From: Microbacterium pseudoresistens
Lineage (GTDB): Bacteria; Actinomycetota; Actinomycetes; Actinomycetales; Microbacteriaceae
DNA length: 64,000 nt
Direction of reading: 5' to 3'
Assembly: GCF_013409745.1 (NCBI RefSeq)
Contig: NZ_JACCBH010000001.1
Span: forward strand, 248,001 to 312,000
Position numbers and translations under genes: made by a program. Positions within the stretch are counted from its first letter, which is position 1. Every line of letters starts with the position of its first letter. This document shows, piece after piece, positions 37,080-54,234 of the stretch. The notes beneath the pieces were generated by a model that was not told the DNA's origin, made no database searches, and saw nothing but the letters and a program-made list of their open reading frames with translations.

Positions 37080-37388
37080 GACTCCCCAATCACGTGACGC
37101 AAATAGTGTGCCATAAACGGCTTACTTTTCGCTCCTCTCAGTAGGTCCACGTCACGTCGGCTAGTGCGCACTCCCCTACAACATCAGGTTTCTATAGCCA
37201 GAAGATCTCAGAAGTCCCAGTCCTCGTCGGGAAGCACGTAATCTTGCGGTCTCTGCGTCTCCGCAGACCGTCCGTGCCACCTGCGTGCCACCCGTACCAA
37301 GAACGGCTGTTGCGCCCGCCGAAGCGAGCCGTGACGCAGTACAAATTGTACTCGTCCCAGGTGGCATCTGCACGGGTCCGTCGTGGAT
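37080..37388. other. Gene-poor stretch upstream of abiEi with a 15-bp palindrome
   Basis: No convincing gene is seen. AGTACAAATTGTACT (37338-37352) is a perfect odd-length palindrome (7+1+7). GTGCCAC occurs twice close together at about 37273-37290. A minus-strand frame ending near 37208 has a C-terminus PDEDWDF that recalls the class Ib NrdF tail, but its upstream residues do not match NrdF; it may be a gene remnant. The promoter of abiEi must lie in the first 60 bp. Confidence 0.45.
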
Positions 37389-37919: not shown

Positions 37920-38231
37920 TCAGTCTCTTCCGCTCCAGTACAGCGGCATGCGCCGTTCATGAGCGATCGCGACGATCTTTACGGCTTCGTCGGTGAGGTA
38001 GTAGACGAGGCGATAGTGCGAGTGAGGAACCTTGGCGTGGCGGAAGACACGTCCGGCCGGGGCGTCCGGGATGGTCTCGGCCGACTCCGGCCATTCGAGG
38101 AGACGGTCGATGACCCGGTTGACGTCGGTGCGGAACCTCGCGCCGCGGAGCTGGCCGCCCTGGTCGTACCACTGGATCGCGTCGTCCAGTTCGCGCACGG
38201 CATCGGGGTGGAACCCGACGCGGAGCGTCAA
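37920..38231 (-). CDS. ParE/RelE-type toxin
   Basis: A 103-residue protein with the RelE/ParE fold pattern: VGFHPDAVRELDDAIQWYDQ forms the first strand and helices, ARFRTDVNRVIDRLLEWPES follows, and RVFRHAKVPHSHYRLVYYLT with VKIVAIAHERRMPLYWSGRD forms the C-terminal strands. ParE-type members poison DNA gyrase; RelE-type members cut mRNA on the ribosome. The missing RelE catalytic set points to ParE. The start overlaps the antitoxin stop (ATGA). Confidence 0.85.
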   Translation of the reverse strand: MTLRVGFHPDAVRELDDAIQWYDQGGQLRGARFRTDVNRVIDRLLEWPESAETIPDAPAGRVFRHAKVPHSHYRLVYYLTDEAVKIVAIAHERRMPLYWSGRD

Positions 38232-38461
38232 GCGTTTCTCTCGACGGCGCGGGCGTCGAGGTAGGCGTTCGCTTCCTCACGGGACAGCATTGCGACCGTA
38301 CCGTTTTCCAGCTCATCAGCCCTACGTGAAGCGACGGTCGCCCAGGCTTCGTCGATGACGGCCTGGTCGGGGGCGTCGGCATCGTAGAGCACGTCGGCGA
38401 CCCGCGAGCGCTCCTCGGGCGTGAGCGCCATCGCGGCTTGGATCACCTCAGCCACCGTCAT
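38228..38461 (-). CDS. Antitoxin of the addiction-module (Unstab_antitox) family
   Basis: A 77-residue acidic protein. MTVAEVIQAAMALTPEERSR and VADVLYDADAPDQAVIDEAW match the 'putative addiction module component' antitoxins that pair with ParE-like toxins. A helical C-terminus (EEANAYLDARAVERN) would bind the toxin. It precedes the toxin gene and overlaps it by 4 nt, the usual antitoxin-first order. Confidence 0.8.
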   Translation of the reverse strand: MTVAEVIQAAMALTPEERSRVADVLYDADAPDQAVIDEAWATVASRRADELENGTVAMLSREEANAYLDARAVERNA

Positions 38462-38604
38462 GCCCTGATTCTACCGTGTAGCCGTTCGGATCAGCGAGGT
38501 TGCCCCGGTCATGAGGGTGAGAGGAGTCGTCGGTGCCGCTTGGGGTGGTCGTCTCGTACCTGCGTTGAGCAAGTGAGCGGATTGATTGGATGCGAGGAGT
38601 GGCC

Positions 38605-39375
38605 ATGGCTTTGGAGTTGGATCGCAAGGCATCGACGGTGGCCGGCGGCATGTTGCTGTGGGTCGAGAAGACAGGCGCGGCACCCGATGAGGCAGGCGGG
38701 AGCCGGATGCAGTTCTCTTACGAGGTGCGTGCCGGTGAGCACGTCTACCGAGGTACGGATCTGTATGCGGGTGTTGGGGTGGATGTCCCGGCGTCGCGGA
38801 TGGTCGGGGTGCTGGCGGGGTTTCTCTCTGATGCGGGTGAGAGATACCGGTCGGGAATGTGCCCACCGGATGACGCCTACCCGGAGTGGGTGTACGAGCA
38901 GGCGTACCTCAACGAGGACGAGCTGGCGATGGCGTCGTTCGAGCTGGAGGAACCGGAGGTGTTCACCGGGCGATCCGGTGAGGAGGAAGGGCCGTGGGCG
39001 TCGGTGGTGTTCTTGCAGGGCGAAGATGCGGACGCCGCGCTCTCGATCCTGGAGGAGCGAGGTCCGGTGTCGACGATCGCGCATCTGGCGCAGTGGGATT
39101 TCGGAGACGAGACCGTGCAGGCAGCCGCCGCGAACGGTTACGTCTACGAGACGCCGCCTGCCGGGACGTGGGACAGGGAATTCCTCAGCGGCCCGTATCA
39201 CCTGTCCTGGAATCACTCGCTGGGCCACGTGAGCCTGATCCGCAGCATCGCCGGCGCGGCCGAGGCGACGGCACCGTCGGAACGCGCAAGGCGACTCGGG
39301 TCGGCGTCCCCGACGATGGCTGCCGGGGTCGGCAGCCCCCGTATCGATGCCCGCACGGAGTCGCTGAGCAGGTGA
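38605..39375 (+). CDS. Hypothetical protein next to the relaxase
   Basis: A 256-residue protein starting MALELDRKASTVAGGMLLWV; GAGGAG lies 6 nt before this ATG (38605), so an upstream in-frame ATG at 38590 is less likely. It is acidic, without signal peptide or membrane segments. A C-terminal region of about 45 residues is low in structure. No motif is recognised. It is convergent with the relaxase gene and divergent from the toxin-antitoxin pair, so it has its own promoter. It is possibly a regulator or accessory protein of the element. Confidence 0.65.
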   Translation: MALELDRKASTVAGGMLLWVEKTGAAPDEAGGSRMQFSYEVRAGEHVYRGTDLYAGVGVDVPASRMVGVLAGFLSDAGERYRSGMCPPDDAYPEWVYEQAYLNEDELAMASFELEEPEVFTGRSGEEEGPWASVVFLQGEDADAALSILEERGPVSTIAHLAQWDFGDETVQAAAANGYVYETPPAGTWDREFLSGPYHLSWNHSLGHVSLIRSIAGAAEATAPSERARRLGSASPTMAAGVGSPRIDARTESLSR

Positions 39376-39461
39376 CCGCGTGCGCATAGGCACGCGCTGA
39401 GAGGGGAAGGGAGGAACGCCGGGGCGTCGCAGAATTGCGGCGCCCTTTCGGCGTGTCACGG

Positions 39462-39587
39462 TCAATGCATGGCACGCAAAATGGTGTTCAGCTCGTTGAT
39501 GACCTTGATGGCGCCGGGCTCGATGCGACCGGTGAGAGCGTCACGTTCGGGATGCCACATGCGACGCCGTGTCCTGACCAGGAGCAC
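39462..39587 (-). CDS. Possible small protein directly after the relaxase
   Basis: A 41-codon frame starts at a GTG abutting the relaxase stop; an internal ATG at 39560 gives 32 residues. The latter reads MWHPERDALTGRIEPGAIKV and ends ELNTILRAMH. Codons are GC-rich in third position and the relaxase frame ends immediately before, so translational coupling is plausible. The product would be a helical peptide with no known family. Confidence 0.4.
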   Translation of the reverse strand: MLLVRTRRRMWHPERDALTGRIEPGAIKVINELNTILRAMH

Positions 39588-42500
39588 TCACCGTCCGATA
39601 CCCTCTCGTGTGACCTCGGGAGTGGCTGGAGGCGCACCAGGCTGGCGGAGGCTGCTGAGGAAGCCGTCGATGCGTTCGTGATCGAGACGCGGCTGCGTGG
39701 CATCCGGTTTCGCCCCGAGCGGGGTGCTGTCGCTGATGCCGTAGCGGTCCCGGTAGGCGACGACCATTCGCAACACCATCCCCCATGAATCTCTCGCTGC
39801 TGAACCGGGACTTGGCCTGGCGCCAAGGGCCTTAAGCCAAGGAGGCTTCTCCGTGAGGGCGTCGTCCGCGAGGGCATGGGCGCGCTGTTCGATGAGTGAC
39901 CGAAGTTCGGTCAGCGCGCGGGTCATGTCCTCTGGCATGCTGCCGGTTGCTTCGGGGATGAACCCGGCGATGAATCGGCGCCGGGTGCCGCGGCTGCGCC
40001 CAGGGCTGGTGCGCGTGATGAGTTGCTGCACGCGGTGGCGTAGCAGGCTCGCCGGATCGTCGGCATCGGTGAGCGGCCCGGCCTTCAGGGCGCGGTCGAT
40101 CAGCCGGTCCGGGCGGTGCCCGACGGCTTCCGCGCGGCGCAGGGTCGCGACGATGGAACCGAATGTGTCCGATTCGATGACCTCGTCGAGGAGGCCCTGG
40201 GCAAGGCCCGCTTGAGCAAGGAGTTCGGTGATGTGCTCGGTCTGGGCTTCCTGCGCGATGGTCTCGTACTGATCGGCGAGGTGCGCGATCGAGGACCAGG
40301 CTTGCTGCTCAGCCTCGATGGTCTCGTGCGCGGACTTCTCCGCCCCCTCGTGCTGCAGGACCCCGTACAGGATCGATCGGGCGGTGGGTTCGGTGGCAGA
40401 GAGCTGGTGTTCTTCGAGATGAGCTTGGTCGGTGGCGACGTACGCGGTGTTGGAGGCCCGGCCGCGGGTCATCGCGACGTAGAAGTTCTCCCGCGTCATC
40501 GAAGACGAGTGCACGATCGCGTGCGCGGTGTCCACAGTCGCGCCCTGGGCGCGGTGCGCGGTGACCGCGTATCCAAGGTCCACGTTCTCGGCTGCATACG
40601 CGGCTGGCAGGATGACGGTTGTGGCATGCCGGGCGTCCGCACGTGCGATCGTGAGGGAACCGTCGTCGTGGTGTTCTGTGACGCACCACCGGTCCCCGTT
40701 CTTCACCCACGACCCGCCGCCTGTGGTGAGGCGGCGGTCGTTCTTCCTGGTGATGATGATGTCTCCCGCACCGGCGCGGGTCCCGTCTCGCAGTCGGACA
40801 CCGTCGGGTGAGACGTGGCCGTCGAGGATCCGGTCGTCGCGAGCGCGGCTGTTCAGCTCGGTGACGGTCTCGTTGGTCTCCGCGATCAGGAGGCTGCTCT
40901 TGCCGTCGGCGATGTCCGTGTACCAGGACCGGTAGGCGGCGTCGAGGATATCTTCATAGTCGCCGCCGACGATCCGGCCCTGATCGTCGTAGGTATCGAT
41001 CACCTCGGCCCGGCCAAGGCGGAGCTGCAGGGATGCAGTCTTCTCCCACTCGGCATGGAACCGGCGCACGTCCGCCAGCTCGGGCGCATCGCCACGGTCG
41101 CGGACCAGCAACCCGAACGCCCCGCCCGCATCGACCGCGGTCAGCTGCGCCCAGTCCCCGACGAGAACAACCTTCGCGCCGGCCTCGGCGGCGTGGGTGG
41201 CGATGCGTTCCAGGGCGAGGGTGCCGGCGAGGGACGACTCGTCGATGATGACGAGTTCCCCGGCCTGTAGGTTCCACCGGCCGTGGTCGTGTTCATGAAG
41301 CCACTTCGCGGTGTTGTCCGTCTCGATGCTCAGGTCCTCCGCAAGCACTTCTGCGGCGGCAGCGGAGGGGGCAAGCCCGATGACGGTGCCGGTTCCGTGG
41401 TTCTTCTCCCACGCGCGGCGCAACGCCCCGAGGGTCGTGGTCTTGCCGGTGCCCGCAGGTCCCACAAGCACATCGATACTCCGCCCGGAGACAGCGATCT
41501 TCTCCACCGCAGCCTGCTGCTCCACCGACAGCCTGATGCCTCGTTCGTCACGCCGAGCGACGACCGCGCTGACGGTGCGCAGCGGCACGACGGGGGCGGC
41601 CGCGGCCTGTGAGAGAGCGAGGAGGGTATCTTCGGCTTCCAGGATGCGGGTCGAGGAGAAGATCGTGTGATGCTTCGGGCGGAACATGCTCGACCCGTCT
41701 GGACGGGTGAACTCCACTGGCGGGGCGACGAGCTCAGGCGGCGTCAGCCGCAGCGACGCGGTCTCGGCGGCATCAACGACCATGCCGATGATCGCTTCAC
41801 GGTCGGTGGTGGACGCGAAGCGCAGCCCCATAGTCTGCCGGGAGGCTTCCGCGTAGAGATTCCACCGCCGCCAGGTCGACCGCTTCACCCCGACCTGCGC
41901 GACGACGACCTCACCGATCGCTGTGACCTGGTCCAACGGAAGATCATCCGCGCGCAGGGTGCCCCAGGCAGCGCCGGATTCGAGAAGATGCGTCGCCCAC
42001 GTGGCGCACTCCTCGCCCAGTACCTGGGTCGCCCGGCCACGCCACTCCTCCGTCAGGTCAGCGAGAGAGCGGATTTCTTTCGCAGGGCGGGTGGCAAGCG
42101 TCGCCTGCTGCCGCAGCCGGATGATCGTCGTCTCCGACGGGTACTTCCCGTAACGTGACACGTACCTCTCGATGAGCCGGTTCTTCTCCGTATCGATCGC
42201 CGCCGACCGGGACGAGAACTCATCGATCAACGCATCATCCACCCCGGTGATCTCCCACGAGGGATTCCGGTCGCGGCCGCGATCGCGAGCCTCCCACCCC
42301 ACGCCGAGGACACGGGTGAGGTGATCGGCGAGCACCGCGTTGTAGTGCTCAGACAACGCGACAACGGCCGCGTGCATCGGCCGGCCATCCAGCGTCCGCC
42401 ATTTCCCGTCCGCCGCCTGCACCCGGTTCGCGATCACAACATGCGTGTGCAACTGAGGGTCACCCGCACGGGAATCGAAGTGATCGAACGCGGTCGCCAC

Positions 42501-43097
42501 CACGCCCCGCACATCGACCTGCGCGACACCGTTCGTGCCCATCCTGCTCGCCGCGACATCACGATCGATCAGATCGATGACGTCCCGGATCGCCGCGTGA
42601 TGCGCCTGCCCGATTAGCGCTTGCGTACCGCCGTCAGCAACAGCCCAGAGCACCGAGACCGACTTCGGGACAGAGAACGTGTAGTCGTACCCCGCGACCG
42701 TGCGCGGGCGCTTGCGCTCCTTCTCCTCACGGACGATGTTCGCCACCGCCGCTTCCCGTTGCTCCGCGTTCAGGTCATCGGACAATCTGCCCGTGCGGAT
42801 CTTCACACGCTCCCGCAATGGCTTGAACGCGAAGTACGCCCGCCCGAGCTGCTCACCCGTCGTCGGATGCTCACCCCGACCCAGCAGGTGACGAAGCTGA
42901 TCCTCCGTCACCACCTCACCGTCCGCGACGGCCGCATCCTCGAGACCAGTCAAGCCAGTGCCGAGCCAGAATCCTGGGGGCGTCCCCGCTTCCGCGTAAT
43001 AGCGGGTCAGTGACGTGGTGAGATCCCGCCCGGTATCACCGGCCGCGATGCTCTTGAGGAGATACCGATACCCCTCCCCAGCACTAAGCACACGCAT
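39588..43097 (-). CDS. MobF-family conjugative relaxase with RecD-type helicase (TraA/TrwC-like)
   Basis: A 1169-residue protein. Residues 1-300 form the TrwC relaxase: MRVLSAGEGYRYLLKSIAAG at the N-terminus, YDYTFSVPKSVSVLWAV, and the metal-binding histidines in FDHFDSRAGDPQLHTHVVI. The central helicase has Walker A GPAGTGKTTT, Walker B VIIDESSLAG, and AYAVTAHRAQGATVD near the end. The protein nicks plasmid DNA at oriT, stays covalently bound and unwinds the strand for transfer. The ATG at 43097 gives the conserved MRVLSAG start; a GTG four codons upstream is the alternative. It marks the surrounding region as a conjugative or mobilisable element. No type IV secretion genes are seen in the window. 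Confidence 0.93.
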   Translation of the reverse strand: MRVLSAGEGYRYLLKSIAAGDTGRDLTTSLTRYYAEAGTPPGFWLGTGLTGLEDAAVADGEVVTEDQLRHLLGRGEHPTTGEQLGRAYFAFKPLRERVKIRTGRLSDDLNAEQREAAVANIVREEKERKRPRTVAGYDYTFSVPKSVSVLWAVADGGTQALIGQAHHAAIRDVIDLIDRDVAASRMGTNGVAQVDVRGVVATAFDHFDSRAGDPQLHTHVVIANRVQAADGKWRTLDGRPMHAAVVALSEHYNAVLADHLTRVLGVGWEARDRGRDRNPSWEITGVDDALIDEFSSRSAAIDTEKNRLIERYVSRYGKYPSETTIIRLRQQATLATRPAKEIRSLADLTEEWRGRATQVLGEECATWATHLLESGAAWGTLRADDLPLDQVTAIGEVVVAQVGVKRSTWRRWNLYAEASRQTMGLRFASTTDREAIIGMVVDAAETASLRLTPPELVAPPVEFTRPDGSSMFRPKHHTIFSSTRILEAEDTLLALSQAAAAPVVPLRTVSAVVARRDERGIRLSVEQQAAVEKIAVSGRSIDVLVGPAGTGKTTTLGALRRAWEKNHGTGTVIGLAPSAAAAEVLAEDLSIETDNTAKWLHEHDHGRWNLQAGELVIIDESSLAGTLALERIATHAAEAGAKVVLVGDWAQLTAVDAGGAFGLLVRDRGDAPELADVRRFHAEWEKTASLQLRLGRAEVIDTYDDQGRIVGGDYEDILDAAYRSWYTDIADGKSSLLIAETNETVTELNSRARDDRILDGHVSPDGVRLRDGTRAGAGDIIITRKNDRRLTTGGGSWVKNGDRWCVTEHHDDGSLTIARADARHATTVILPAAYAAENVDLGYAVTAHRAQGATVDTAHAIVHSSSMTRENFYVAMTRGRASNTAYVATDQAHLEEHQLSATEPTARSILYGVLQHEGAEKSAHETIEAEQQAWSSIAHLADQYETIAQEAQTEHITELLAQAGLAQGLLDEVIESDTFGSIVATLRRAEAVGHRPDRLIDRALKAGPLTDADDPASLLRHRVQQLITRTSPGRSRGTRRRFIAGFIPEATGSMPEDMTRALTELRSLIEQRAHALADDALTEKPPWLKALGARPSPGSAARDSWGMVLRMVVAYRDRYGISDSTPLGAKPDATQPRLDHERIDGFLSSLRQPGAPPATPEVTREGIGR

Positions 43098-43404
43098 CGA
43101 CACCGTCACACGGAACAGGTGCGTGATCAGATCCCGTTCTCGCGCTCCCTACGGCGTCGTAGCATGCGGTACTGGACAGTTCGTTTTTCGACACCAGCTA
43201 CGTTCACGGGATGCTCGTGGTCCGGTTGAAAAGCGAAAGCGGCTGCGCCAAGTGGAGGGCGGCGGTCATCATCAAACCCCCAGCAGACGACGGGGGCTTC
43301 CAAGTGGCATTCGCGAGGCTCCGGCGAGCGCAGAGTATCGGCGGTGCACCGAATAAACATTGGCGTCGACAGCAGACGCCTCGGCCCTCTCCTACGCGTA
43401 GCCT
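43098..43404. other. Intergenic region between relaxase and ABC-ATPase genes
   Basis: No gene is supported in these 307 bp. It must hold the minus-strand promoter of the relaxase gene in its first part and, in its last part, the end of the three-gene operon. I see no strong inverted repeat typical of a nick site here. Confidence 0.5.
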
Positions 43405-45387
43405 CTAGGTTGTGGCATCGTCGATGAGCCCGAACGGCGGTTGCGTCGCGCGACCCGAGAAGCGCACAACAACATGCTCGTCGACAGCAACGGGCGGACT
43501 GTTGTCTACGAAAATGACCTGCGCTCCCTCGCCCGCCGCGTCCAGCCATCGTTCGACGTGCTCGTAGACGTTGTTGACGAGCTTCGCGTCAGCGAACTCA
43601 TCGTCATCCGGGCGTGCGGCGTGACCGAGGTTTTTCTGCGGACTGTCGATGATGAGTAGACCTGGCGCGAGAGCCTCGCGTTCGTACGCGATCTCCCACA
43701 AAGCCAACGCCCAAGCCAGGCTGATCAGCGTCAGCCCTCCGCTGCTCGATTTCGTGTAGTTGACGCCACGGACGGTGGGGATCAGCTTCGCGTCCAGCCA
43801 GGCGTTGCTGAGTTTCGGGTAGTCGAAGTCGCCGAGAATCTCGACGAACCGATCGGAGATGGTCCGGATGATGCTGTCGCGGTCAGGGCGAGTCGCCTGC
43901 TCCTGCCGCTCTCTGCGCAACTGCGCGAGTTGCCCGACCTTCAGCGCGGCTTCGTTCTCGGCCTGCGTGACCCGTTCCCAAAGACGGATACCCTGCGCTT
44001 GATACGCAGCGACCTTCTCGGCTTCAGCCAACTGCTTGCTGAGCTGATCGCGGAGCGCCAGGAACGGAGCGGGAAGGCTGGCAACACGATCGAGCTCGGA
44101 AGCGGCCGAGTTGGCGAGGGCCGAGGCGTGCTCACGAGAGCCCCGGATCGTGGCGAGTTCGCGAGTCAAGGAATCGAGGTACACGTTGAGCTGGTCGAGT
44201 CGCCGCGAAGTCGCGGTGAGCTCGCGTTCGATGAGCTGTCGTCGCTCTCGCTCGTTCTCATCGTTGTGCTCATGGCTCAGGTTATGGCCACAAAGGCTGC
44301 ATGCGCCGGAGACGGTGATGTGCGGATGCGACGTGAGCTCGGCGAAGCATACCGGGCAGTGGGTGACGTTTAGCGGGTCGAAGAGCTGCTCGGCTTCCTT
44401 CAGGAAGGTCAGCTTCTTCTTGTCGTCGGCATACTGCAGAGCCAGGGAGGTGAGCCGTTCGATCAGGCTTTCTCGGCCGCGCACTCGTACATCCCACGCT
44501 TTGACCGCGGTCTCCGCCTCGGACAGTGAGCGTCGCAGATCGTCGGTCGCTTCCTGCCGGGCGAGCTCGTCGGTATCGAGGTTATCGATCTGCTCCCGGA
44601 CCTGGGCAGCAAGTTGGATCGCATCGCTCTGCTGAATCTCGACACCTGCGGGGCCAAGCGGGTACTCGCTATCCACGATGGTCTTGAGTGTCCTGGCAGA
44701 TCGTTCGGCTTCGCGGGCTGCGTTCTCGGCGGCTCGAATCCGGTCAGCGAGCTGGGCGAGCGAGGCGTCCGCCACGCCGAAGATCAGGTCGATCGTCTGC
44801 TGTAGCTTCTGCGCGACGACGTGGTTGCCATGCTCCTCAAGCAGGTTCTGGCTGTCGAGCCGGGAGTTCTGGAAGTAGACGAGCCTGGCCACATCTCGGA
44901 TGCTCAGCGCGTGAGTGTCGGAGTCCTCCTTGGATGGGCTCAAGGGCAGTTTGATGCCGCCCATGCCGAACGCGGCGAGCAAGAACTGGGAGAGCGAGTC
45001 CGGATCCGACGGTGGCTCGATCGTCAGTCGAGTCTCCAGCGATGAAGCCCGTTCTTCGAGGGCAGCTGGCCACACTGAAGCGAACTTCGACGGCGCGCCG
45101 GTCGTCGTGCGCTCGATCGTGTGAACGACGCCGTCGATCTCCAGCTCGAGGGCGACAGCGGCAATGCGCTGCACCATCTCCTCGTGCTCCGGGTAGTCTG
45201 ACCCGCCCAGGCAGTACAGGATGTACTCGATCGTACTGGTCTTGCCCGTCTGGCTTGCCCCAGCGACGATAGACAGCGGCCGCCATCGCTCATCCACGGT
45301 GAAATCGACATTGTAGGTGCGGTCTGCGCCAGGCGGGGCGAATAGACGAAGTCGGCGAATCCGAATCCCAGAAGTGCTCGTACTCAT
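43405..45387 (-). CDS. SMC/RecN-like ABC ATPase of an ABC-three-component system
   Basis: A 660-residue ATPase. Walker A GASQTGKT is at residues 43-50 near the N-terminus. Long coiled-coil segments then flank a four-Cys zinc ribbon (CPVC at 344-347, CSLC at 363-366). The C-terminal ATPase half has the signature SSSGGLTLISLAWALALW and Walker B LLIIDSPQKN (Asp581). This split head and coiled coil is the SMC/Rad50 architecture, with a zinc ribbon in place of a hook. In ABC-3C conflict systems such an ATPase works with a middle component and an effector, as here. The ATG at 45387 overlaps the middle component stop (ATGA). Confidence 0.82.
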   Translation of the reverse strand: MSTSTSGIRIRRLRLFAPPGADRTYNVDFTVDERWRPLSIVAGASQTGKTSTIEYILYCLGGSDYPEHEEMVQRIAAVALELEIDGVVHTIERTTTGAPSKFASVWPAALEERASSLETRLTIEPPSDPDSLSQFLLAAFGMGGIKLPLSPSKEDSDTHALSIRDVARLVYFQNSRLDSQNLLEEHGNHVVAQKLQQTIDLIFGVADASLAQLADRIRAAENAAREAERSARTLKTIVDSEYPLGPAGVEIQQSDAIQLAAQVREQIDNLDTDELARQEATDDLRRSLSEAETAVKAWDVRVRGRESLIERLTSLALQYADDKKKLTFLKEAEQLFDPLNVTHCPVCFAELTSHPHITVSGACSLCGHNLSHEHNDENERERRQLIERELTATSRRLDQLNVYLDSLTRELATIRGSREHASALANSAASELDRVASLPAPFLALRDQLSKQLAEAEKVAAYQAQGIRLWERVTQAENEAALKVGQLAQLRRERQEQATRPDRDSIIRTISDRFVEILGDFDYPKLSNAWLDAKLIPTVRGVNYTKSSSGGLTLISLAWALALWEIAYEREALAPGLLIIDSPQKNLGHAARPDDDEFADAKLVNNVYEHVERWLDAAGEGAQVIFVDNSPPVAVDEHVVVRFSGRATQPPFGLIDDATT

Positions 45388-46001
45388 GAAGCTCCGCCTC
45401 CTCTGGTGACGGTGTCGACGCCCTCGACGTCGGCGAGGAAGTCGATGAGCAGCCACGGCGCTCCGAGCAACTTCTCGGCTTTTGCCCGCAGTCTCGTCTC
45501 CGAGAGTCCACCGAATCGTTTGAGGACGATTAAGGCAGCAGTGCGATATGCCTCCGCGTAGACCGTCTTCAGCGCGCTCGCAAACTCCGCACCCGACGGC
45601 GTGATCGCGTAGCGGTCGGCCAGAGCCCGAGCCAGGCCGCGAGCAACGAGTAACGCGAGATCGTGTCGAATCCGCTCATGTCGCGTTGCGAAGCGGTGCC
45701 CGACCGTGCCGTAGGTGAGCTGACGGTCTGTGAATCCGGCAAGGCGAAGAGTGAGTCGATCGCGCGCATCCTTCTCGACGGACTCGCCATCGAGAACGAT
45801 GAACGGGTTCGCGGCGAAGAAGTCGAAGTATGCCAGCCTGTCGAGGTTCGTCAGCTTCGCGCCGGTGTCTTCCGCGGCGGCCAACAGGAGCGCGAGCTGG
45901 GCAACGCGGAACACCGTCCTCTCCTCCGGTCCCTCCCACGCGGTTCGCTCCGTGCCCAGTTCAGGTTCTGACTCAGACAACGGTGGCCCCCTCTCCGGCA
46001 T
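45384..46001 (-). CDS. Middle component of the ABC-three-component system
   Basis: A 205-residue protein, mostly helical with winged-helix-like stretches: VFRVAQLALLLAAAEDTGAK, LDRLAYFDFFAANPFIVLDG and RHERIRHDLALLVARGLARA, then SALKTVYAEAYRTAALIVLK. The LDRLAYFDFFAANPF segment is the kind seen in ABC-3C middle components. The start overlaps the effector gene by 29 bp (ATG at 46001); the frame is also open to 46070. It likely bridges the ATPase and the effector. It has no catalytic motif. Confidence 0.7.
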   Translation of the reverse strand: MPERGPPLSESEPELGTERTAWEGPEERTVFRVAQLALLLAAAEDTGAKLTNLDRLAYFDFFAANPFIVLDGESVEKDARDRLTLRLAGFTDRQLTYGTVGHRFATRHERIRHDLALLVARGLARALADRYAITPSGAEFASALKTVYAEAYRTAALIVLKRFGGLSETRLRAKAEKLLGAPWLLIDFLADVEGVDTVTRGGGAS

Positions 46002-47007
46002 GGTCTGCAGGTGGTGCGGCGCTTGGCAACTCGCCGCTCTTTTCAAGGGCTGTCCCAGCGGACGTGCCACGATGCCCGGCCGCGACGTCCCGCCAGTGCG
46101 TCACCCATCCTGCGCGAGCACCCTCGACGAGACGGTGAACCAGGCCCCTGCGGTGCGCAGGACGGAGCCTCAGCTCCGGACTGCTCGCCAGCTTCGCAAC
46201 GCCGCTATTGACGTCGTCGATGAGCCCCACCATACGGCCATCCTCCGACGCTGAGCCTGACCTAGCGTTGTACTCTTGTTCCCAGGTGCCGTGAGCTTCA
46301 AGCTCCGCCTCATTCAGTGCGCTGACCTCGGCGGATACGCCGCGGCCAGCAACATCGCGGGCCATAGCCTCCGCCGCGAAGAAGAAGCCCTTCGCGGCAT
46401 CCGTCTCCGTGTGGCCGGCGGTCTCCAACTGCACGACGAACAGTGCGTCGGACAGCGTTCCTAGATTCGTGAGAGCAGCTACGGGAACGTCGCTGCCGAC
46501 CGGCATCTGATCAGGAAAGTACAGCTCGCGAAGCTCGCGTGCGTCCGCCTGCTGAAGCGCAGACCGAATATGAACGCCATTCCAGAGCTCGATTCGCACG
46601 CCCGTCTCTCGGGTCTGGCGTTGGCGCCAGCCGTCAAACCACTTCTGCTGATCCGGCGGAAGGACGCTCGGCACACAGAGCGTCCACGCCGTCACCGTGA
46701 ATCCTTGATCCTTCGCCTTTCCCACCACTTGCTTGAAGGAGTCACGGATCTCACCCTGTTGCGTCTTACCCCAGGCCGTGAAGAACTTCGATTGCCAGAC
46801 GACGATGTCGCTATCGAGGCCGCCAACATAGGTGTCGATGCCCCAGTCTCCGCCACCCGGGTACGCGACCTCCGACGCACCAGGCAGCTTCACCATGACA
46901 AGGTCGGTCACCAGTCGTTGGAACCGGGTACGGGCAGCCGCTTCATCACCGCTGTCAGAGAGGAAACGGACGAACATCGCCCTGTGGTCTGGGAGTTCGC
47001 CGGTCAT
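45973..47007 (-). CDS. REase-like effector with ABC-3C C-terminal domain
   Basis: A 344-residue protein. The N-terminal domain (residues 1-150) looks like a PD-(D/E)xK nuclease: VAYPGGGDWGIDTYVG (Asp58) and VVWQSKFF (Gln72-x-Lys74), then VTAWTLCVPS and GVRIELWNGVHI. The C-terminal part (from TNLGTLSDALFVVQLETAGH) fits the C-terminal domain that joins effectors to ABC-3C middle components. Together these point to a DNA-cutting effector switched on by the SMC-like ATPase. The ATG at 47007 is preferred; a GTG at 47052 is open in frame. It is the first gene of the three. Confidence 0.75.
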   Translation of the reverse strand: MTGELPDHRAMFVRFLSDSGDEAAARTRFQRLVTDLVMVKLPGASEVAYPGGGDWGIDTYVGGLDSDIVVWQSKFFTAWGKTQQGEIRDSFKQVVGKAKDQGFTVTAWTLCVPSVLPPDQQKWFDGWRQRQTRETGVRIELWNGVHIRSALQQADARELRELYFPDQMPVGSDVPVAALTNLGTLSDALFVVQLETAGHTETDAAKGFFFAAEAMARDVAGRGVSAEVSALNEAELEAHGTWEQEYNARSGSASEDGRMVGLIDDVNSGVAKLASSPELRLRPAHRRGLVHRLVEGARAGWVTHWRDVAAGHRGTSAGTALEKSGELPSAAPPADHAGEGATVV

Positions 47008-47052
47008 AGCTTCTTCGACCGTCCAGCTTCGTTGCGCATGATTGCTCCTCAC

Positions 47053-47499
47053 CTAGCGTGTCGGCGAGCAGCCGTCACCTGCCTAGCTCATGACCATCAT
47101 GATATAGATCAGGAGGCTTTCCCCCGTGATGCGAAGTGTCGTCGACGGTAGGACTTCGGCGATGAGGAGCGCGCAGGGGTCCCGAACCTCTGGCGACGCT
47201 GCATAAGCCGGGTGGTAACCCTCCTTTCCCGGCGACGACGTTGGTGTGCATACCGTCTCCAACGGAGAGAAAGCCCTTCGGCGAGGAGACGATCTTGAGG
47301 CTCGTCGAGACGGCAACATGCACCGGGTACAGACCACGGCCTGTCGATCGTGCAGCGCATCGCGACGCAAAACATCACGGCGGCCTCCTACTAACTCCTC
47401 GATCAGATGGTCAACTGGCTGTGCGGCTGCGATTGCCGCGAGTCAGTCGGTCGCGGCTCTGACGTGACGAGAGCTAAACGGCCACACTCCTCGTGTCGC
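47053..47499. other. Intergenic region upstream of the ABC-3C operon
   Basis: About 450 bp without a supported gene; all open frames here are short and have poor third-position bias. It must contain the promoter of the ABC-3C operon on the minus strand. GCCGGG and CCCGGC arms around 47207-47234 could form a weak hairpin. Nothing else stands out. Confidence 0.5.
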
Positions 47500-47937
47500 C
47501 TACGGGATGAGTAGCGTGTGCCTCATATTACGGGTGATGCGGCGTCGTTCTGCGGCGGTGTGCGTCGACGCGGTTCGGCCTTCTGCGAGGGCGGTGCGTC
47601 GTTCGTTGCGGATGGCGGCGCGGACGGCGAGGTTCTCGTGGCTGCGAGCGATGAGCAGGCGCAGGGTGGCCGCGAGTCCGTGGACGACCAGTTTGAGGGC
47701 GGTCCACCAGCAGATGAGCATGCCGAGGTAGAACCATTCAGTGTGTCCGAGGCGGACAGCGCCGTAGCAGCCGATCCCGGCGAGGAAGTAGAGGGCGCCG
47801 AGGAGGACCGCGGGCAGGCCCCATCGGTAGCCTCGCCGGGTGCGTAGGAGCGTGACGAGGCGGTTGCTCGGGAGCCACCGCTGGCACCAGTAGAAGACAG
47901 CAGCTGCAGGGCGCATGGCGAGTGCGATGAGGAACAT
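47500..47937 (-). CDS. Small membrane protein of the plasmid-like region
   Basis: A 145-residue protein with three to four hydrophobic segments (PAVLLGALYFLAGIGCYGAV, FYLGMLICWWTALKLVVHGL). A basic C-terminal tail (RNERRTALAEGRTAST, RRRITRNMRHTLLIP) follows. AAGGAGG lies 8 nt before the ATG at 47937, a very good ribosome site, which fixes the start although the frame is open much further upstream. Family unknown; a role at the membrane in plasmid transfer is only suggested by location. Confidence 0.72.
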   Translation of the reverse strand: MFLIALAMRPAAAVFYWCQRWLPSNRLVTLLRTRRGYRWGLPAVLLGALYFLAGIGCYGAVRLGHTEWFYLGMLICWWTALKLVVHGLAATLRLLIARSHENLAVRAAIRNERRTALAEGRTASTHTAAERRRITRNMRHTLLIP

Positions 47938-48787
47938 CAGGGGGCCTCCTTCAACGGTCGAGCACGTTTGTGCTCGGTTGTGTTGTTGGTGGCTGGGCCC
48001 CTTCGCACCGATGGTGCGTCCTGAATCCTGAAGCGTGTATTGCCCGCCGGGTGCTGTCAATTCTACGGGGTGTTGCATGGTGCCGCCAGGGCTTCGTTCT
48101 CGCGATGCAACGGGGCCCTGCTGGGGTGCTGCAACTCGTGGGTGGGCCAGAGCGACGCCTGCAGCACGGCTGTCGCTGCCGGGGTCGTCGCTGCGCGCAA
48201 CATGCTGCGGGGTCGCGGGTTGCGGATACCGCATGCGGGCTGTTCGGACTGCGCGGGTGTTGCGGAGCACCGTCGCGTCGCCGTCGCATACGGTGGGCGC
48301 GGTGCAGGAATGTCGCAGCCTTGATCGCCGTGGTCGGTGGTGTGAGCGTCGACGGTGGCGAGGCCCGCCGTTCGACTGTGGCGCGAGCTGTGAAGTCGCG
48401 CTCGTCGTGACTTCTTGGGCACGGGTCGATGTATCGGCAGGTTTCGGACGCGGGAGCGGGAGCGGCGACGGCTGATCTCTCAGGCGGAAGCGAGGTCGCC
48501 GCAAAGCGGCGGTGGAGTCGCGTTCGCGCGGTCGCGGATGGGGCACGGCGTGTAAATGCAAGACGTGTATCCGACTGTGAGAAGAACGGGTGCGGAGCGT
48601 GGTGGAAGAGGTCGGCGGCGTCGGCTTCGGATCGAGCAGCGACCGCGCAAGTTCCGGGTGCTGGGTACTCGGACTGGTCATGGTGCTGGCAGCGAGGGTC
48701 AGGCGCAGGGCGCGGTGTGAGAGGGGTTCGGGCGGTGCCGACCGTGGCTCGTGGTGGATGCTCGGCACCGTCCGGGGGCGCTGGCGG
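47938..48787. other. 850-bp gene-poor, G/T-skewed region (possible replication or transfer site)
   Basis: No reading frame here has convincing coding features; those that are open translate into low-complexity Ser/Arg/Pro-rich sequence. The plus strand is strongly enriched in G and T. Short GTTGC/GCAAC-type words recur with variable spacing at about 48072, 48107, 48128, 48196, 48219 and 48251. The stretch lies upstream of the small membrane-protein gene and next to dprA and parB homologues. It may hold an origin, oriT or partition site, but no known consensus is recognised. Confidence 0.4.
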
Positions 48788-49675
48788 TTACTCGTCCCGA
48801 GTGGGGGCGAGGTCGTCGACCATGGTGATGAGGCGGGCGATGCCCGCTTGGATGAGGAGGTGGCATCCTGTGCTCGTGGTGCTGGTGATCGGGCCGGGCA
48901 CTGCTCCCACCGTGCGCGCGAGGCGGTGCGCGGTGTGCGCGACCTGGGGTGCGCCCGAGCGTGCTCCGGCTTCCACGATCACGGTTGCAGCGGCGAGGGC
49001 TGCGAGGATGCGGGTACGTGCAACGAACCGGGAGCGGGTCGGCGCAACACTCGGCGGGGTCTCGGTGAGCACGAGTCCGTGCTCGGCGACCTGATGCAGC
49101 AGGCCGATGTTGCCTGCCGGGTAGGGGCGGTCGATGCCCGATGCGAGCACGACGATTGCATGCCCGGATGCGGCGAGGGTTGCGCGGGTGGCGGCGGCGT
49201 CGATCCCGTACGCGCCGCCGGTGACGATGCTGTGCCCGATGCCGGTGAGGTCGTGGGCGAGTTCAGCGGCAATGTGGTCGCCATAGCTTGTGGCGGCTCT
49301 GGCTCCCGTGATCGTCACGGCGCAGTCGGGAGTGCCGGTGAGGAGGTCAAGATCTCCGGATGCCCACAGGGCGACGGGCCGATCCGTGCCGAGGTCGTCC
49401 AGCCCCGTGGGCCATTCCGCGTCGGTGGGGATGAGTACCCGATGGGTGCCGTCTGCGGCGCTGTCGAGGGCGTCGATAACGGTCCGCTCAGTGATGGCGG
49501 GCGGGAGGGTATCGAGGGTGTGCTGGACAACAGCGGGGCCGTTGGTGCCGGTGAGGCGGGCGGCGGGCGTATTCGGTTCGCCGGGGATAGTCAGGCAGGC
49601 CAGCGCGATGCGTGCGTAGCGCTCCTGCTGGTCGGGGTCGGCGGCGGTGATGCGGTCGAGAATCTGAGTGCTCAT
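48788..49675 (-). CDS. DprA/Smf-like DNA-processing protein
   Basis: A 295-residue protein with the DprA Rossmann-type fold: PVALWASGDLDLL, VTITGARAATSYGDHIAAEL, SIVTGGAYGIDAAATRATLA, VVLASGIDRPYPAGNIGLLH and TVIVEAGARSGAPQVAHTA. The G-(S/A)-R and GGAxGID motifs are those of DprA, which loads RecA on incoming single-stranded DNA. In a conjugative element it may act on the transferred strand. It lacks the extra C-terminal winged helix of some DprA proteins. It follows the parB gene with a hairpin between, in the same direction. Confidence 0.87.
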   Translation of the reverse strand: MSTQILDRITAADPDQQERYARIALACLTIPGEPNTPAARLTGTNGPAVVQHTLDTLPPAITERTVIDALDSAADGTHRVLIPTDAEWPTGLDDLGTDRPVALWASGDLDLLTGTPDCAVTITGARAATSYGDHIAAELAHDLTGIGHSIVTGGAYGIDAAATRATLAASGHAIVVLASGIDRPYPAGNIGLLHQVAEHGLVLTETPPSVAPTRSRFVARTRILAALAAATVIVEAGARSGAPQVAHTAHRLARTVGAVPGPITSTTSTGCHLLIQAGIARLITMVDDLAPTRDE

Positions 49676-49716
49676 GATGTCTGCTCCGGTGAGGTCGTGA
49701 AACGGGATAGGGGGTG

Positions 49717-49750
49717 GGGCCGGTCGCCGGCGATGCGATGACCGGCCCCT
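49717..49750. terminator. Perfect hairpin between dprA and parB genes
   Basis: GGGGCCGGTC pairs with GACCGGCCCC around a 14-nt loop that itself contains GCCGGC. It lies between the end of the parB frame and the start of dprA. Lack of a T-run makes it a factor-independent terminator only tentatively; it could also stabilise mRNA or protein-bind. Confidence 0.5.
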
Positions 49751-49768
49751 GTGGTTGTTGACGGCAGG

Positions 49769-50335
49769 TCAGGCCGCGTCCGCGACCTCGGCGTCGGTCG
49801 CGTTGTCCTCGTCAGTGCCGCTTGCCTCGGTGGCGTCGGCGTCGTCCGTCTCGGTCGACGATTCCTCGGCATCAGCGGGGTTCTCGAGCGCGGTCGCGTC
49901 CTCCGCCCCTTCCACGTCGGTGGCGTCGTCTTCGTCCGTGCCGTTCTCCTCATCGGCGGCGGCATCCGTCTCCTCGTCACTCGTCTCCTCGGCGGCGATG
50001 TTCTCGCTGGCGGTGTCGTCCTCGGGGGTGTCCTCGGTGCGGGTGACGCTGTCGGGGTCGGTGATGAGGGTTTCGACATCGGAGAGGGTGTATCCCCATG
50101 CGGCGAGCTGGTCGAGGTACTGGCGGGTCACCTGGTCGGGGTTGCGCCAACTGTTCTTGTCGGTTGCCGCTTCCAGAGCGCCGAGTGCGACGGCGAGCAG
50201 TGCATGTCCGGCCTTAGTCGGGGTGGCCTGGGTCATCGCGGCGATGGGGTTCGGCTGTCCGTAGTGGCGCTGACCGTCGAGGTTGAGGAGGGTCGCGGCC
50301 ATGTCGTGCCCGTCGTTTGCGGCGCGGGCGACCTC
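49769..50335 (-). pseudogene. C-terminal part of parB, separated by an in-frame amber codon
   Basis: This frame continues that of the parB gene directly after the TAG at 50336-50338. The first codons read EVARAANDGHDMAATLLNLD, then LDQLAAWGYTLSDVETLI, followed by a very acidic Glu/Asp/Thr/Ala tail of about 80 residues. It would add 188 residues to the ParB-like protein. An internal ATG at 50302 could give a 177-residue product. The continuous frame with no other stop suggests the amber codon is recent, an error, or suppressed. The acidic tail is normal for plasmid proteins with DNA-mimic or disordered ends, so the piece may be functional. Confidence 0.6.
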
Positions 50336-51442
50336 CTAACGGCTGTCCGCGATCACGGTTGCCGCGAAAGCGAGCGCCTGGGAGGGCAGACGCTTGCGGC
50401 CGAGCAACTTCGTCACCCATGCGCGGCGTACCTTCTCCGCACTGACCCATGCCTTGTTGTTCGCGACGACGCGGCGACGTTCGGCCTTCTCCTCCTCGGT
50501 CATCGCTCCGGATCGGGTGGTGGGCTGGCTGTGCCGGATGGAGGTCAGGCCGTGCTCACGCCAGTTCACGACGACGTGCGCGATGTCGATGCTCCCCCAA
50601 CGCTCCCCGATAGCGACGGCGTGCCCGTCCTTTCCGGCGTAGTTCTCTTCGGTGATGCGCTCGCCGTCGGCGGTGAGGAGGTCGTGGAAGAACGCCACGT
50701 CCTCGTCGCCCCATGCCGGGTAGTCCACGACGGTGTATCCGTCTGCTTCGTACTGGGCGCGCAGGGCCGCGATTTCCTCCTTGGTGGCCTTGTCGTCCAG
50801 GTGCCGCTGGGCGTAGTGGTCGAACGATTCCGGGTCGCGGGCGGCGATGCTGGTTAGTTCGGCCAGCGCGTCGGGGTCGTCCTCGAACTCGGTGAGGATG
50901 AGCGCCTGATCGAGGGTGAGGGCGTGCTGGGCCACGGCGGTCTTGGCGATGTCGCTTTCGGCGACGGCAAGGCCGGTCTTGACGGTGGTGCGCTTGGTGC
51001 CGGTCTGCTTGGCGATCGCGGTGATGCTCATCCCGTCCAGTGCCAACTGTCGCCATGCCTCGGCCCGGTCGGTGTCGGTGAGGCCTGTGCGGTGTTCGTT
51101 GGTGATGTATTGCTGGATGATGCGGATTCGCTTCTCGTCGGAGGCGTCCACGACGTAGACGGGCACGTCCTCGGCGTCGGCCTCGCGGGCGGCGAGGGTG
51201 CGGCGCTGACCGTCGCGGACGATGATGTTCCCGTTCTGGTCGGGGTGGGCGAGGATGGGCACGATCACGCCGTGGAGCTTGATCGAGTTGACGAATGCCC
51301 GGTCGAGGTCGACCTGTGAGCGGATGTTGTCCTCCACGACGAGGGTGTGGGGGCTGATCCGGCGAACTTCCGGCCCCTGCACCGTCTCCTCAACGGGGGT
51401 GAGGTCTGCGGCCTGGGTCGGGGTGGTGTCGATGATGGTCAT
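50336..51442 (-). CDS. ParB/Spo0J-like nuclease-domain protein, N-terminal part
   Basis: A 368-residue protein. Residues 30-130 form the ParB N-terminal domain: ISPHTLVVEDNIRSQVDLDR, FVNSIKLHGVIVPILAHPD and IIVRDGQRRTLAAREADAE, where GQRR holds the CTP-binding-type box. A helix-turn-helix follows (LALDGMSITAIAKQTGTKRT). The frame stops at TAG (50336) after AATVIADSR and resumes directly with plausible protein. The ATG at 51442 is preferred over the open frame to 51574. Plasmid ParB proteins of this type help partition or regulate the element. No ParA gene is next to it in the window. Confidence 0.85.
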   Translation of the reverse strand: MTIIDTTPTQAADLTPVEETVQGPEVRRISPHTLVVEDNIRSQVDLDRAFVNSIKLHGVIVPILAHPDQNGNIIVRDGQRRTLAAREADAEDVPVYVVDASDEKRIRIIQQYITNEHRTGLTDTDRAEAWRQLALDGMSITAIAKQTGTKRTTVKTGLAVAESDIAKTAVAQHALTLDQALILTEFEDDPDALAELTSIAARDPESFDHYAQRHLDDKATKEEIAALRAQYEADGYTVVDYPAWGDEDVAFFHDLLTADGERITEENYAGKDGHAVAIGERWGSIDIAHVVVNWREHGLTSIRHSQPTTRSGAMTEEEKAERRRVVANNKAWVSAEKVRRAWVTKLLGRKRLPSQALAFAATVIADSR

Positions 51443-51959
51443 GGCTCTCGGTTCCTTTCCTGAATCCCGGAGGGCCGTCACACCTGGTGGTGTGGCTGTT
51501 CCCTCCCTGCCATTGCCTTTCGGCACATGCCGAGAAAAGGGGCCAGGAATGAATGTGCAAGGCCGAAGAGTCAAAAAATCTCCTCCCCCACGTCAGGGAG
51601 AGGAGATGGACTATCGGGGAGAATTTTTGCGTGCCTTGCGCAGAAGGGAATGGTCCCGCACAATCAAGCAGCCGAAAGGCAATCCGCAGGATTGCCCGAT
51701 CAGCACAGCCACCGCGTCAGCGGTGACCGCCCGACTATCGGCGAAGAAATCGCGACAGCGTCAGCCATGGCTCATGGCGTGCAACCATCATGATCGGCTG
51801 GCGTTGCACGGCCTCAGGAAAGCTATCCGAGCTTAGAGCAGCATGCGCCGTCACGGAGCTCCGCCGTGTCTTGGGGTGGGACTCCCGCACCTGTCTTCAC
51901 GAATAGCCGATCCGAGAACGGTCGGCGCGGACGTGAAGGCGGTGGTCTGGGTGGCCCGG
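51443..51959. other. Divergent intergenic region with nested inverted repeats (origin/oriT candidate)
   Basis: No gene is well supported. CACACC/GGTGTG forms a hairpin at 51479-51494. ATTGCCTTTCGGC (51512-51524) is the exact inverse of GCCGAAAGGCAAT (51671-51683), 146 bp apart. The second arm overlaps another perfect hairpin, GGCAATCC-GCA-GGATTGCC (51678-51696), so the two structures exclude each other. This layout fits a regulatory switch or an origin of transfer or replication. parB and the ArdC-like gene diverge from it. Confidence 0.55.
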
Positions 51960-53045
51960 ATGAGACGTTCCCCCGCAGAGGCGCAGGCGGCGCGTGAAGC
52001 CAAGCTCGAGCTGATGGCGGAGAAGCTGCAGGCGGCGGTCGAAGGGCTCACGACCGGGGAGGACTGGAAGCGTGCGATCGAGTTCGCGGCCCGGTTCCGG
52101 GCAAAGAGTTTCCGGAATACCCTGTTGATCTTCGCTCAGCATGCTGAGGCATATGAGCGGGGGAAGGTCTCGGAGCCGGTGCCGACGTATGTGGCGGGCT
52201 TCAAGCAGTGGCAGCAGTTGGATCGGTCGGTCGCGGGACAGTCCGGCTACATGATCTACGCCCCGGTGATGGGGCGTTTCGCGTCCAAGAACCCGTCCGA
52301 TCCGATGTCGTGGCGTCGCCTGACGCAACGAGAGAAGCCGGCGGCCGGCGAGGTGGTCCGCTCGAAGATGGTGAACGTGAAGCCTGCCTACGTGTGGGAC
52401 GTGTCACAGACGACGGGAGCGGAGATCCCGGAACGGCCAATGCCACGGCTGCTGGAAGGGGAGGCGCCGGCGGGACTCTGGACGGGGCTTGCCGGCCAGG
52501 TGACGGCAGAGCGCTTCACCCTGGCGGACGCCGCTGGAGCGTCGGCGATCATGGGCGCAAACGGGATGACCGACTACGAGAGCCGCGTCGTCACCGTCCG
52601 GGCCGACATGGACGACGCGGCCCGCGTGAAGACCCTCGCCCACGAGCTCGGGCATGTGCGCATGCACGACCCTGCCGAGTCGGTCACCCATCATCGGGGC
52701 ATCCGGGAGGTGGAGGCGGAGTCGGTGGCGATGATGATCGGCGCAGCGCACGGCATGGACACCAGCGACTACACGATCCCCTACGTCGCGTCCTGGGCAT
52801 CATCGGTGGCTGACAAGGAACCGGTCGACGTGGTCCGCGAGACCGGCGAGCGGGTGCGTCGCGTCGCACTGGATATCCTCGACAAGCTGCCCGACACGGG
52901 CATCGGCGACGGCTACCCGCCCGGGCTTGACCGGTCCGGTCCGGACGCGGAACGCGAGACGACAACGGAGCGGACGGCGGAGCTGGGCGCGGCGGCGCCC
53001 ATGCGGTCGACGGCGAGCGTCGACGTGGCCGTACCGGCGTTGTGA
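51960..53045 (+). CDS. ArdC-like N-terminal domain with zinc metallopeptidase (HELGH)
   Basis: A 361-residue protein. The N-terminal region FRNTLLIFAQHAEAYERGKV with TYVAGFKQWQQLDRSVAGQS matches the ArdC single-strand DNA-binding domain. The C-terminal half carries HELGH (within VKTLAHELGHVRMHDPAE) and EVEAESVAMMIGAAHGMD, a zinc metallopeptidase of ImmA/IrrE-like type. ArdC proteins protect incoming plasmid DNA against restriction. The ATG at 51960 (MRRSPAEAQ) is preferred, although the frame is open back to 51843. It overlaps the DUF2637 gene by 4 nt (GTGA), so they form an operon. Confidence 0.87.
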   Translation: MRRSPAEAQAAREAKLELMAEKLQAAVEGLTTGEDWKRAIEFAARFRAKSFRNTLLIFAQHAEAYERGKVSEPVPTYVAGFKQWQQLDRSVAGQSGYMIYAPVMGRFASKNPSDPMSWRRLTQREKPAAGEVVRSKMVNVKPAYVWDVSQTTGAEIPERPMPRLLEGEAPAGLWTGLAGQVTAERFTLADAAGASAIMGANGMTDYESRVVTVRADMDDAARVKTLAHELGHVRMHDPAESVTHHRGIREVEAESVAMMIGAAHGMDTSDYTIPYVASWASSVADKEPVDVVRETGERVRRVALDILDKLPDTGIGDGYPPGLDRSGPDAERETTTERTAELGAAAPMRSTASVDVAVPAL

Positions 53046-53803: not shown

Positions 53804-54234
53804 ACACGGGTGACGACGAGCGGTACATCCCGCTGAAGCAGGATGGCAGGGATGCGGTAGTGACTGTGGCGTCGGGACGAACGGCGGAGCCGGAGCATGT
53901 GGAGACGGCGCAAATGGATTCGGACGCGCTGGCTCGCTTGTCGGACCCGGCGTTGGCGGCGCGTCGAGAGCGCATCGCCGCTCAGGTGAAGGACCGTTCG
54001 CGGCTGACGTGGATGCCCGCATCGGAACTGATGCGACACAGCAGCCAACGTGCCGCGGACGCGATCAGTCACGGGCAGGCCAGACTGCACCGGGCTGTGC
54101 GGGACGCCACGGTAGCCGGTGCAAGGAAGGTGGCGCAGGCCATCGGCGAGCGGCTACGAGGGTTGGGCACGCCGCGCCCCGTCATCGGGCGACCGCAGCA
54201 GAGCGAACCTTTGGTGAGCCGTCAGAGCATCTGA
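53800..54234 (+). CDS. Hypothetical protein of the transfer operon
   Basis: A 144-residue protein, mostly charged and helical, with a basic C-terminal half (SRLTWMPASELMRHSSQRAA, RAVRDATVAGARKVAQAIGE). AAGGAGG precedes the ATG at proper spacing and the ATG overlaps the previous stop. No family recognised. Third in the ArdC-DUF2637 operon. Confidence 0.68.
   Translation: MNTGDDERYIPLKQDGRDAVVTVASGRTAEPEHVETAQMDSDALARLSDPALAARRERIAAQVKDRSRLTWMPASELMRHSSQRAADAISHGQARLHRAVRDATVAGARKVAQAIGERLRGLGTPRPVIGRPQQSEPLVSRQSI

Follow-up and report, generated by a model that had tools for sequence, protein, structure and literature searches.

A probable type II Lamassu immune operon on a candidate integrative conjugative element of Microbacterium pseudoresistens

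What three tightly overlapping minus-strand genes next to a relaxase gene do in Microbacterium pseudoresistens is the question raised by the stretch of DNA analysed here, 64,000 nucleotides long and referred to as the window (contig NZ_JACCBH010000001.1, positions 248,001 to 312,000). A previous sequence-only reading of the window had proposed a conflict system of the ABC-three-component (ABC-3C) type, located on a mobile element. Our analysis indicates, with a probability of about 0.92, that the genes form lmuA-lmuC-lmuB, an immune operon of Lamassu type II (ABC-3C, DdmABC-like) borne by an integrative conjugative element.

Genes of the operon and its family

The operon comprises the following features in the window.

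45973..47007, minus strand: lmuA, effector, 344 amino acids (AA)
45384..46001, minus strand: lmuC, middle component, 205 AA
43405..45387, minus strand: lmuB, SMC/Rad50-like ATPase, 660 AA
43362..43380, minus strand: terminator-like hairpin just 3' of lmuB, from a pattern scan

The open-frame check of the window confirmed that all three frames at 43405-47007 are open on the minus strand, as the sequence-only reading had claimed. lmuA and lmuC overlap by 29 base pairs (bp), or by 8 bp if an in-frame TTG at 45980, which fits the relatives better in the LmuC alignment, is taken as the start of lmuC, and lmuC and lmuB overlap by 4 bp (ATGA). The hairpin 3' of lmuB is not significant on its own because three such hairpins were found in the region compared to 2.4 expected in shuffled sequences, and a promoter scan found nothing.

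Profile searches in PADLOC assigned all three proteins to Lamassu, with E-values of 3.8e-75 for LmuA (residues 10-316 of 344), 8.7e-41 for LmuC (residues 25-180 of 205) and 3.8e-193 (641 bits) for LmuB (residues 4-659 of 660). The best profiles, PDLC03851, PDLC03869 and PDLC03862, respectively, were also the top ones in both other operons scanned whole (L003 and L015), and no feature was found that sets the window operon apart from this PADLOC subfamily. In Pfam the middle protein matched MC2 ('ABC-3C system Middle Component 2') over the cut-off (5e-08, 33.4 bits vs 26.9), and none of the three proteins reached the cut-offs of NCBIfam. Passages of PMC10586767 place both ABC-3C and DdmABC in a Lamassu superfamily and give LmuC as an alternative name for the middle component, and passages of PMC12409362 class three-gene ABC-3C clusters as Lamassu type II. 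Given the PADLOC and MC2 matches and this literature, the ABC-3C call was right, and the system already bears a name. The operon displays the marks of Lamassu type II, namely three genes, LmuB homology, an altered Walker-B Glu, a known middle-component family and a CPxC motif, and is a divergent member of the known family, not a new type of system. Wadjet (JetABCD) was also considered and rejected, JetC at an E-value of 0.75 being the sole Jet match among the three proteins up to E 1 in PADLOC.

The comparison with homologous loci that the sequence-only reading had called for gave a uniform picture that goes beyond chance. The A-C-B order and strand are kept at 13/13 other loci of the LmuB clade (L003-L007 and L010-L017; L002, L009 and L015 are one locus and were counted once), with LmuA and LmuC immediately upstream of LmuB, the LmuA frame being cut by the end of the stretch in L016 and L017. 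The relatives at these loci are 33-55% identical to the window proteins for all three proteins, LmuB of L003-L007, on named genome contigs, being 45-50% identical; the ten best LmuB matches in plasmid records, of which five were taken for analysis, share 35-38% identity. An alignment of 11 LmuC contains 27 invariant columns.

The operon is sparsely distributed. LmuA and LmuB each match only two of the 148 sampled relatives, M. pseudoresistens itself and a second genome of the same genus (G032), and in a sample of the order LmuB was detected in 10/396 genomes, own genome included, seven of them at 22-26% identity. A phylum-wide LmuB profile search returned 170/396 genomes; this tally was not used because the matches were mostly short ones to the ATPase head and 9/14 control genomes were also positive, and only the five best loci (L028-L032) were kept for LmuB comparison. 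No relative was found in a viral contig collection by two alignment scans, nor any LmuB relative in phage records searched with the LmuB protein at 1e-5, and a literature search combining Lamassu with Microbacterium found nothing. In the LmuB tree, an unstarred branch with support 92/92 unites the window copy with those of Nocardia, Saccharothrix, Tetrasphaera, Cellulomonas and Actinotalea; LmuB of G032 falls in another group (91/88, unstarred). Patchy presence and a gene tree whose branches are not fully supported are consistent with horizontal transfer of the predicted operon.

The LmuB ATPase and the LmuA effector

LmuB carries a Walker A motif (GASQTGKT at residue 43), a signature-like SSGG at 548-551 and a Walker-B-like IIDSPQ, in which Asp581 is followed by Ser and Pro and the catalytic Glu is absent. 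Between stretches that look coiled-coil-like by eye lie paired CxxC motifs, CPVC(344)-x15-CSLC(363). Gly43, Gly48, Lys49, Thr50, SSG(548-550), Asp581 and the four Cys residues (344, 347, 363 and 366) are invariant in 13/13 aligned LmuB. Examination was extended to 27 LmuB picked from search returns (the 13 of the clade alignment, L017-L024, L028-L032 and L060), in which the residue after the Walker-B Asp is Ser in 20, Gln in four, Thr in two, Asn in one and Glu in none. According to passages of PMC10586767, LmuB generally has a Glu-to-Gln change at this site; since Ser, Gln, Thr and Asn all occur among the 27, that change is one among several replacements.

The paired CxxC was present in 18/27 LmuB, including the four more distant L018, L020, L028 and L029, with a spacing of 16-19 residues from first Cys to first Cys, and a single CxxC in the remaining 9/27. 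Parts of PMC10586767 describe a zinc-hook motif in many, not all, LmuB. The sequence-only reading had noticed a zinc ribbon within the coiled coil and called it unusual: the ribbon is real and, with its four Cys invariant in 13/13 clade members, a conserved feature of the clade. Judged from their sequence, the paired motifs could bind zinc within one LmuB chain. A search of the PDB with the LmuB clade profile returned 9hqu (1.1e-09), 9ny5 (3.1e-06) and 9uxl (3.2e-06), deposited as DUF3732 proteins, the other 25 rows being at 0.14 or worse. These three structures are presumably of Lamassu LmuB.

The Rad50-like features of LmuB raise the possibility that the genes encode a DNA repair set, a Rad50/SbcC-like ATPase with an accessory nuclease, which serves break repair instead of defence and sits on a mobile element by chance. 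LmuB indeed gives weak, sub-cut-off matches to AAA_23 (in Pfam) and Rad50 profiles, and the annotation 'DNA recombination protein RecN' is attached to several of the Streptomyces copies. However, the Lamassu profiles score far higher (641 bits for LmuB), no Mre11-like match was detected among the three proteins or ten neighbours scanned, the distribution is patchy (1 of 147 other genomes in the sample of 148) and the Walker-B Glu is missing from every LmuB examined, making a repair function very unlikely.

Two parts can be distinguished in the effector.

LmuA ~residues 18-170: predicted N-terminal Mrr-like nuclease domain, with Asp58 and Gln72-x-Lys74
LmuA ~residues 185-315: C-terminal part, presumably a docking domain

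The nuclease-like residues noted previously, Asp58 and Gln72-x-Lys74 (Gln72-Ser73-Lys74), were found at just these positions, and Asp54, Gly56, Asp58, Trp71, Gln72, Ser73 and Lys74 are invariant in 12/12 aligned LmuA. In a wider alignment of 29 LmuA-type nuclease domains the motif Asp and Gln are invariant and the Lys is not, and the D...QxK arrangement is common to LmuA of a Klebsiella plasmid (L060) and of L019, L024 and L030. The N-terminus of the PADLOC Avs2 profile matches LmuA of the window at 7.3e-07 and that of L015 at 4.8e-11; the part of Avs2 matched is presumably a nuclease. Mrr_cat, a restriction endonuclease family, was the most frequent Pfam family among the 29 domain sequences scanned one by one, matching seven of them at E-values up to 0.1 (best 0.0069). 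Three unrelated families matched one to three of the 29 with best E-values of 0.00066 to 0.0046, that is, no more weakly, so the Mrr_cat matches are a hint and not proof. PF14130 (Cap4 nuclease) had no match to LmuA up to E 1 and none in the whole M. pseudoresistens genome, and PDB profile searches with LmuA, its nuclease domain and LmuC gave nothing or chance matches. Taken together, the invariant motif residues and the weak profile matches suggest that the N-terminus of LmuA is a nuclease.

Several results weigh against the Lamassu assignment, chiefly where the effector is concerned. LmuA itself is without any Pfam match, and single-sequence searches of the PDB with LmuA, LmuB and LmuC found no relative. 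No curated ABC-3C C-terminal domain (CTD) family in Pfam was matched over cut-off by the C-terminus of LmuA in a scan of 12 members, in which one matched CTD6 at 0.029 and another CTD7 at 0.062, with unrelated families reaching 0.0045. Of the profile checks against ABC-3C families that the earlier reading had proposed, that of the middle protein gave a match over the cut-off and that of the effector C-terminus did not. When LmuA was compared profile to profile with another LmuA group, the alignment was collinear and brought the Asp/QxK motif as well as a C-terminal H-x-L motif into register, but it is a hint at most because the probability was only 1.7-2.1% (E 0.023 at 2.1%).

Some Streptomyces effectors are annotated as 'serine/threonine protein kinase', a name that was rejected, since these proteins align with LmuA over ~300 AA and the six Pfam families matched by the 12 LmuA include no kinase. 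We guess that the name may have spread from nuclease-kinase fusions such as L014:8177-10147. In that protein, encoded beside Lamassu on a Streptomyces plasmid, the LmuA nuclease domain is fused to a Ser/Thr kinase domain recognised by Pfam Pkinase (1.3e-23) and by the PD-T4-6 and Stk2 kinase profiles of PADLOC; the fusion is a possible new defence protein. In a sample of the class, in which 13/296 genomes matched (own genome included), the LmuA N-terminal domain was also found in 17 proteins (L061-L077) of 12 other genomes, which all belong to one family, and in these proteins it is joined to a C-terminal part of ~310-445 AA; ten of these proteins were scanned and gave no Pfam match up to E 0.001.

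That the operon is a degenerate, non-functional remnant might be thought from its being one of only two copies in the sample of 148 relatives. Against this, the three frames are open and still overlap as in an operon, and none of the expected motifs is missing: LmuB has Walker A, the Walker-B Asp, the signature and the four Cys, and LmuA has the nuclease motif. A remnant is thus the least probable of the alternatives considered here, and the Lamassu operon is conserved and apparently intact.

The carrier element

The operon lies between a TrwC-type relaxase gene on one side and DprA-like and ParB-like genes on the other. The following features surround it or mark the element beyond the window.

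39588..43109, minus strand: TrwC/MobF relaxase (Pfam TrwC, 5.1e-90)
48788-49675: DprA-like gene (PADLOC ShosA, 2.9e-38)
50336..51574, minus strand: ParB-like gene (Pfam ParB_N, 4.4e-06, 27.1 bits vs cut-off 26.3)
37920-38461: toxin-antitoxin pair (ParE-type toxin, addiction-module antitoxin), within the element and close to its left end
37210-37228: probable left attachment repeat, a 19-bp exact repeat
Genome 339605-341356, beyond the window: TraG/VirD4-type coupling protein
Genome 342956-344242: tyrosine integrase just before nrdF (Pfam)
Genome C1:344610-344628 (L125:13610-13628): second copy of the repeat at the nrdF 3' end, adjoining the integrase

Pfam thus bore out the placement of the operon between relaxase and parB genes that had been read from the sequence. 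In nrdF, which encodes the ribonucleotide reductase small chain (Pfam), the 19-bp repeat takes in the last 18 coding bases and extends one base into the stop codon. By our own arithmetic a 19-bp match of such kind is expected ~0.001 times; an 18-bp stretch within nrdF that matched an unrelated place in the same scan is almost as unlikely and was taken as chance. From these data, genome 285210-344628 (~59.4 kb) is probably an integrative conjugative element inserted at the 3' end of nrdF, with the Lamassu operon as its probable cargo; the 'mobile element' of the earlier reading is hereby sharpened by the relaxase, coupling protein, integrase and repeat. Neither the window nor the two stretches that adjoin it on the right contain a tRNA gene, and nrdF was absent from the best 10 of 355 matches of a literature search on nrdF and integrative conjugative elements. 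In a near-identity DNA search of plasmids with 38400-53900, there were two matches, both short, from Microbacterium and accounting for 1-2% of the query.

The element also contains genes that resemble copper-transporting P-type ATPases by eye, and a gene with a helix-turn-helix match below the cut-off occurs in the chromosome beyond the window as well, near the coupling protein and integrase. At window 36254-37079, outside the element, an AbiEi-like gene (PADLOC 1.8e-64) adjoins and overlaps a short frame at 36254-36535, which has no match in Pfam and continues into a transposase gene of the Mutator family; the partner toxin may have been cut off at this point.

Relatives of the relaxase were detected in 64/148 sampled genomes, own included, many of them as partial helicase matches. 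From these, 19 relaxase flanks were taken, 18 on the 5' side and three shortened by contig ends. One contains a DprA-like gene and one contains M78 and DUF2637 genes, and in two other elements DNA methyltransferases are encoded close to the relaxase. The DprA-like gene of the window has a relative at 47% identity near the relaxase in G017 (L106). Five of nine chosen neighbours matched a defence profile in PADLOC and four did not; defence genes thus recur near this relaxase among the neighbours chosen. G032 (L015, G032:C41:78000-96000) has a defence cluster that may belong to a related element: a MobF relaxase is followed at ~2-13 kb by hamB and hamA of Hachiman, by an AbiEi gene and by a second, divergent Lamassu.

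Flanked as it is by relaxase and ParB-like genes on a conjugative element, the operon could also be an element-maintenance (addiction-like) or conjugation-accessory module, whose nuclease would kill cells that lose the element or act in DNA transfer with defence as a secondary effect, and Lamassu of the other genome of the genus likewise lies ~9 kb from a MobF relaxase. That same copy, however, stands together with Hachiman and AbiEi genes, and the distant relative on the Klebsiella plasmid (21% LmuB identity) is part of a cluster that includes a retron and ptuAB and whose 5 kb flanks have no annotated relaxase. Moreover, LmuABC is carried by 0/19 of the related relaxase flanks, nearly all of which (18/19) represent only the 5' side and three of which end early at a contig end. 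A maintenance or transfer role is consequently unlikely, although it ranks ahead of repair or decay.

Proposed mechanism and known systems

Passages of PMC10586767 and PMC12409362 report that in other Lamassu systems LmuB senses aberrant invader DNA, upon which LmuA is freed and cuts DNA indiscriminately, leading to cell death or plasmid loss; release of an LmuA tetramer is described in an addendum of PMC12409362. By analogy, LmuB, Rad50-like and without the usual catalytic Glu, would together with LmuC keep the LmuA nuclease inactive. Once LmuB meets aberrant phage or plasmid DNA, such as ends, hairpins or replication intermediates, the complex would change shape and free LmuA, which may then assemble and cut DNA indiscriminately, so that the cell is killed or arrested (abortive infection) or the plasmid purged. 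The genes, their homology, the conserved operon and motifs and the relaxase, integrase and repeat of the carrier are seen in the sequence itself; sensing, release, oligomerisation and an abortive outcome are taken from that literature and would probably apply here too. From its genomic context, we infer that the element would gain by excluding competing phages and plasmids.

An element that brings along a Lamassu would need to leave its own transfer forms unharmed, and, if it tolerates the system during transfer, it would offer a tractable case for the question of how Lamassu separates self from non-self. As a tentative idea that we hold to be rather doubtful, LmuB of this clade may use a self-contained zinc ribbon in the middle of its coiled coil instead of the shared Rad50 hook and so form dimers or recognise DNA in another way than single-hook systems do; the system would then arm the element against competing plasmids and phages and somehow spare the element's circular and single-stranded transfer forms. 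The split between paired and single CxxC (18 vs 9 of 27) bears on how the sensor dimerises, and, by the present analysis, an actinobacterial integrative conjugative element probably carries a Lamassu of the MC2 type.

Compared to Lamassu type II and DdmABC of Vibrio cholerae, as described in parts of PMC10586767 and PMC12409362, the window operon is alike in its predicted nuclease effector, small middle component, SMC-like ATPase of ~650 AA and altered Walker-B Glu. It differs in that the middle component DdmB is of the DUF6521 type in the passages of PMC12409362 and of the MC2 type here, and its effector gives weak Mrr and Avs2 matches and none to the Pfam Cap4 nuclease family. In Lamassu as presented in parts of the review PMC10586767, Gln follows the Walker-B Asp and a single CPxCG-type hook motif is present, whereas LmuB of the window has Ser and two CxxC motifs. 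The ABC-3C system with MC2 and CTD6 on the Klebsiella plasmid NZ_LR890179 (L060) shares MC2, a QxK-motif effector, an AAA/SMC-like ATPase and the gene order, but its LmuB is 21% identical to that of the window and has a single CxxC, and its effector gives a full CTD6 match (2.6e-48) where the window effector stays below every cut-off. The zinc-hook ATPases Rad50 and SbcC resemble LmuB in the Walker A head, the coiled-coil-like middle and a CxxC within it; unlike them, LmuB of the window has paired CxxC motifs in one chain, a replaced Walker-B Glu and no Mre11-like partner among the window proteins scanned.

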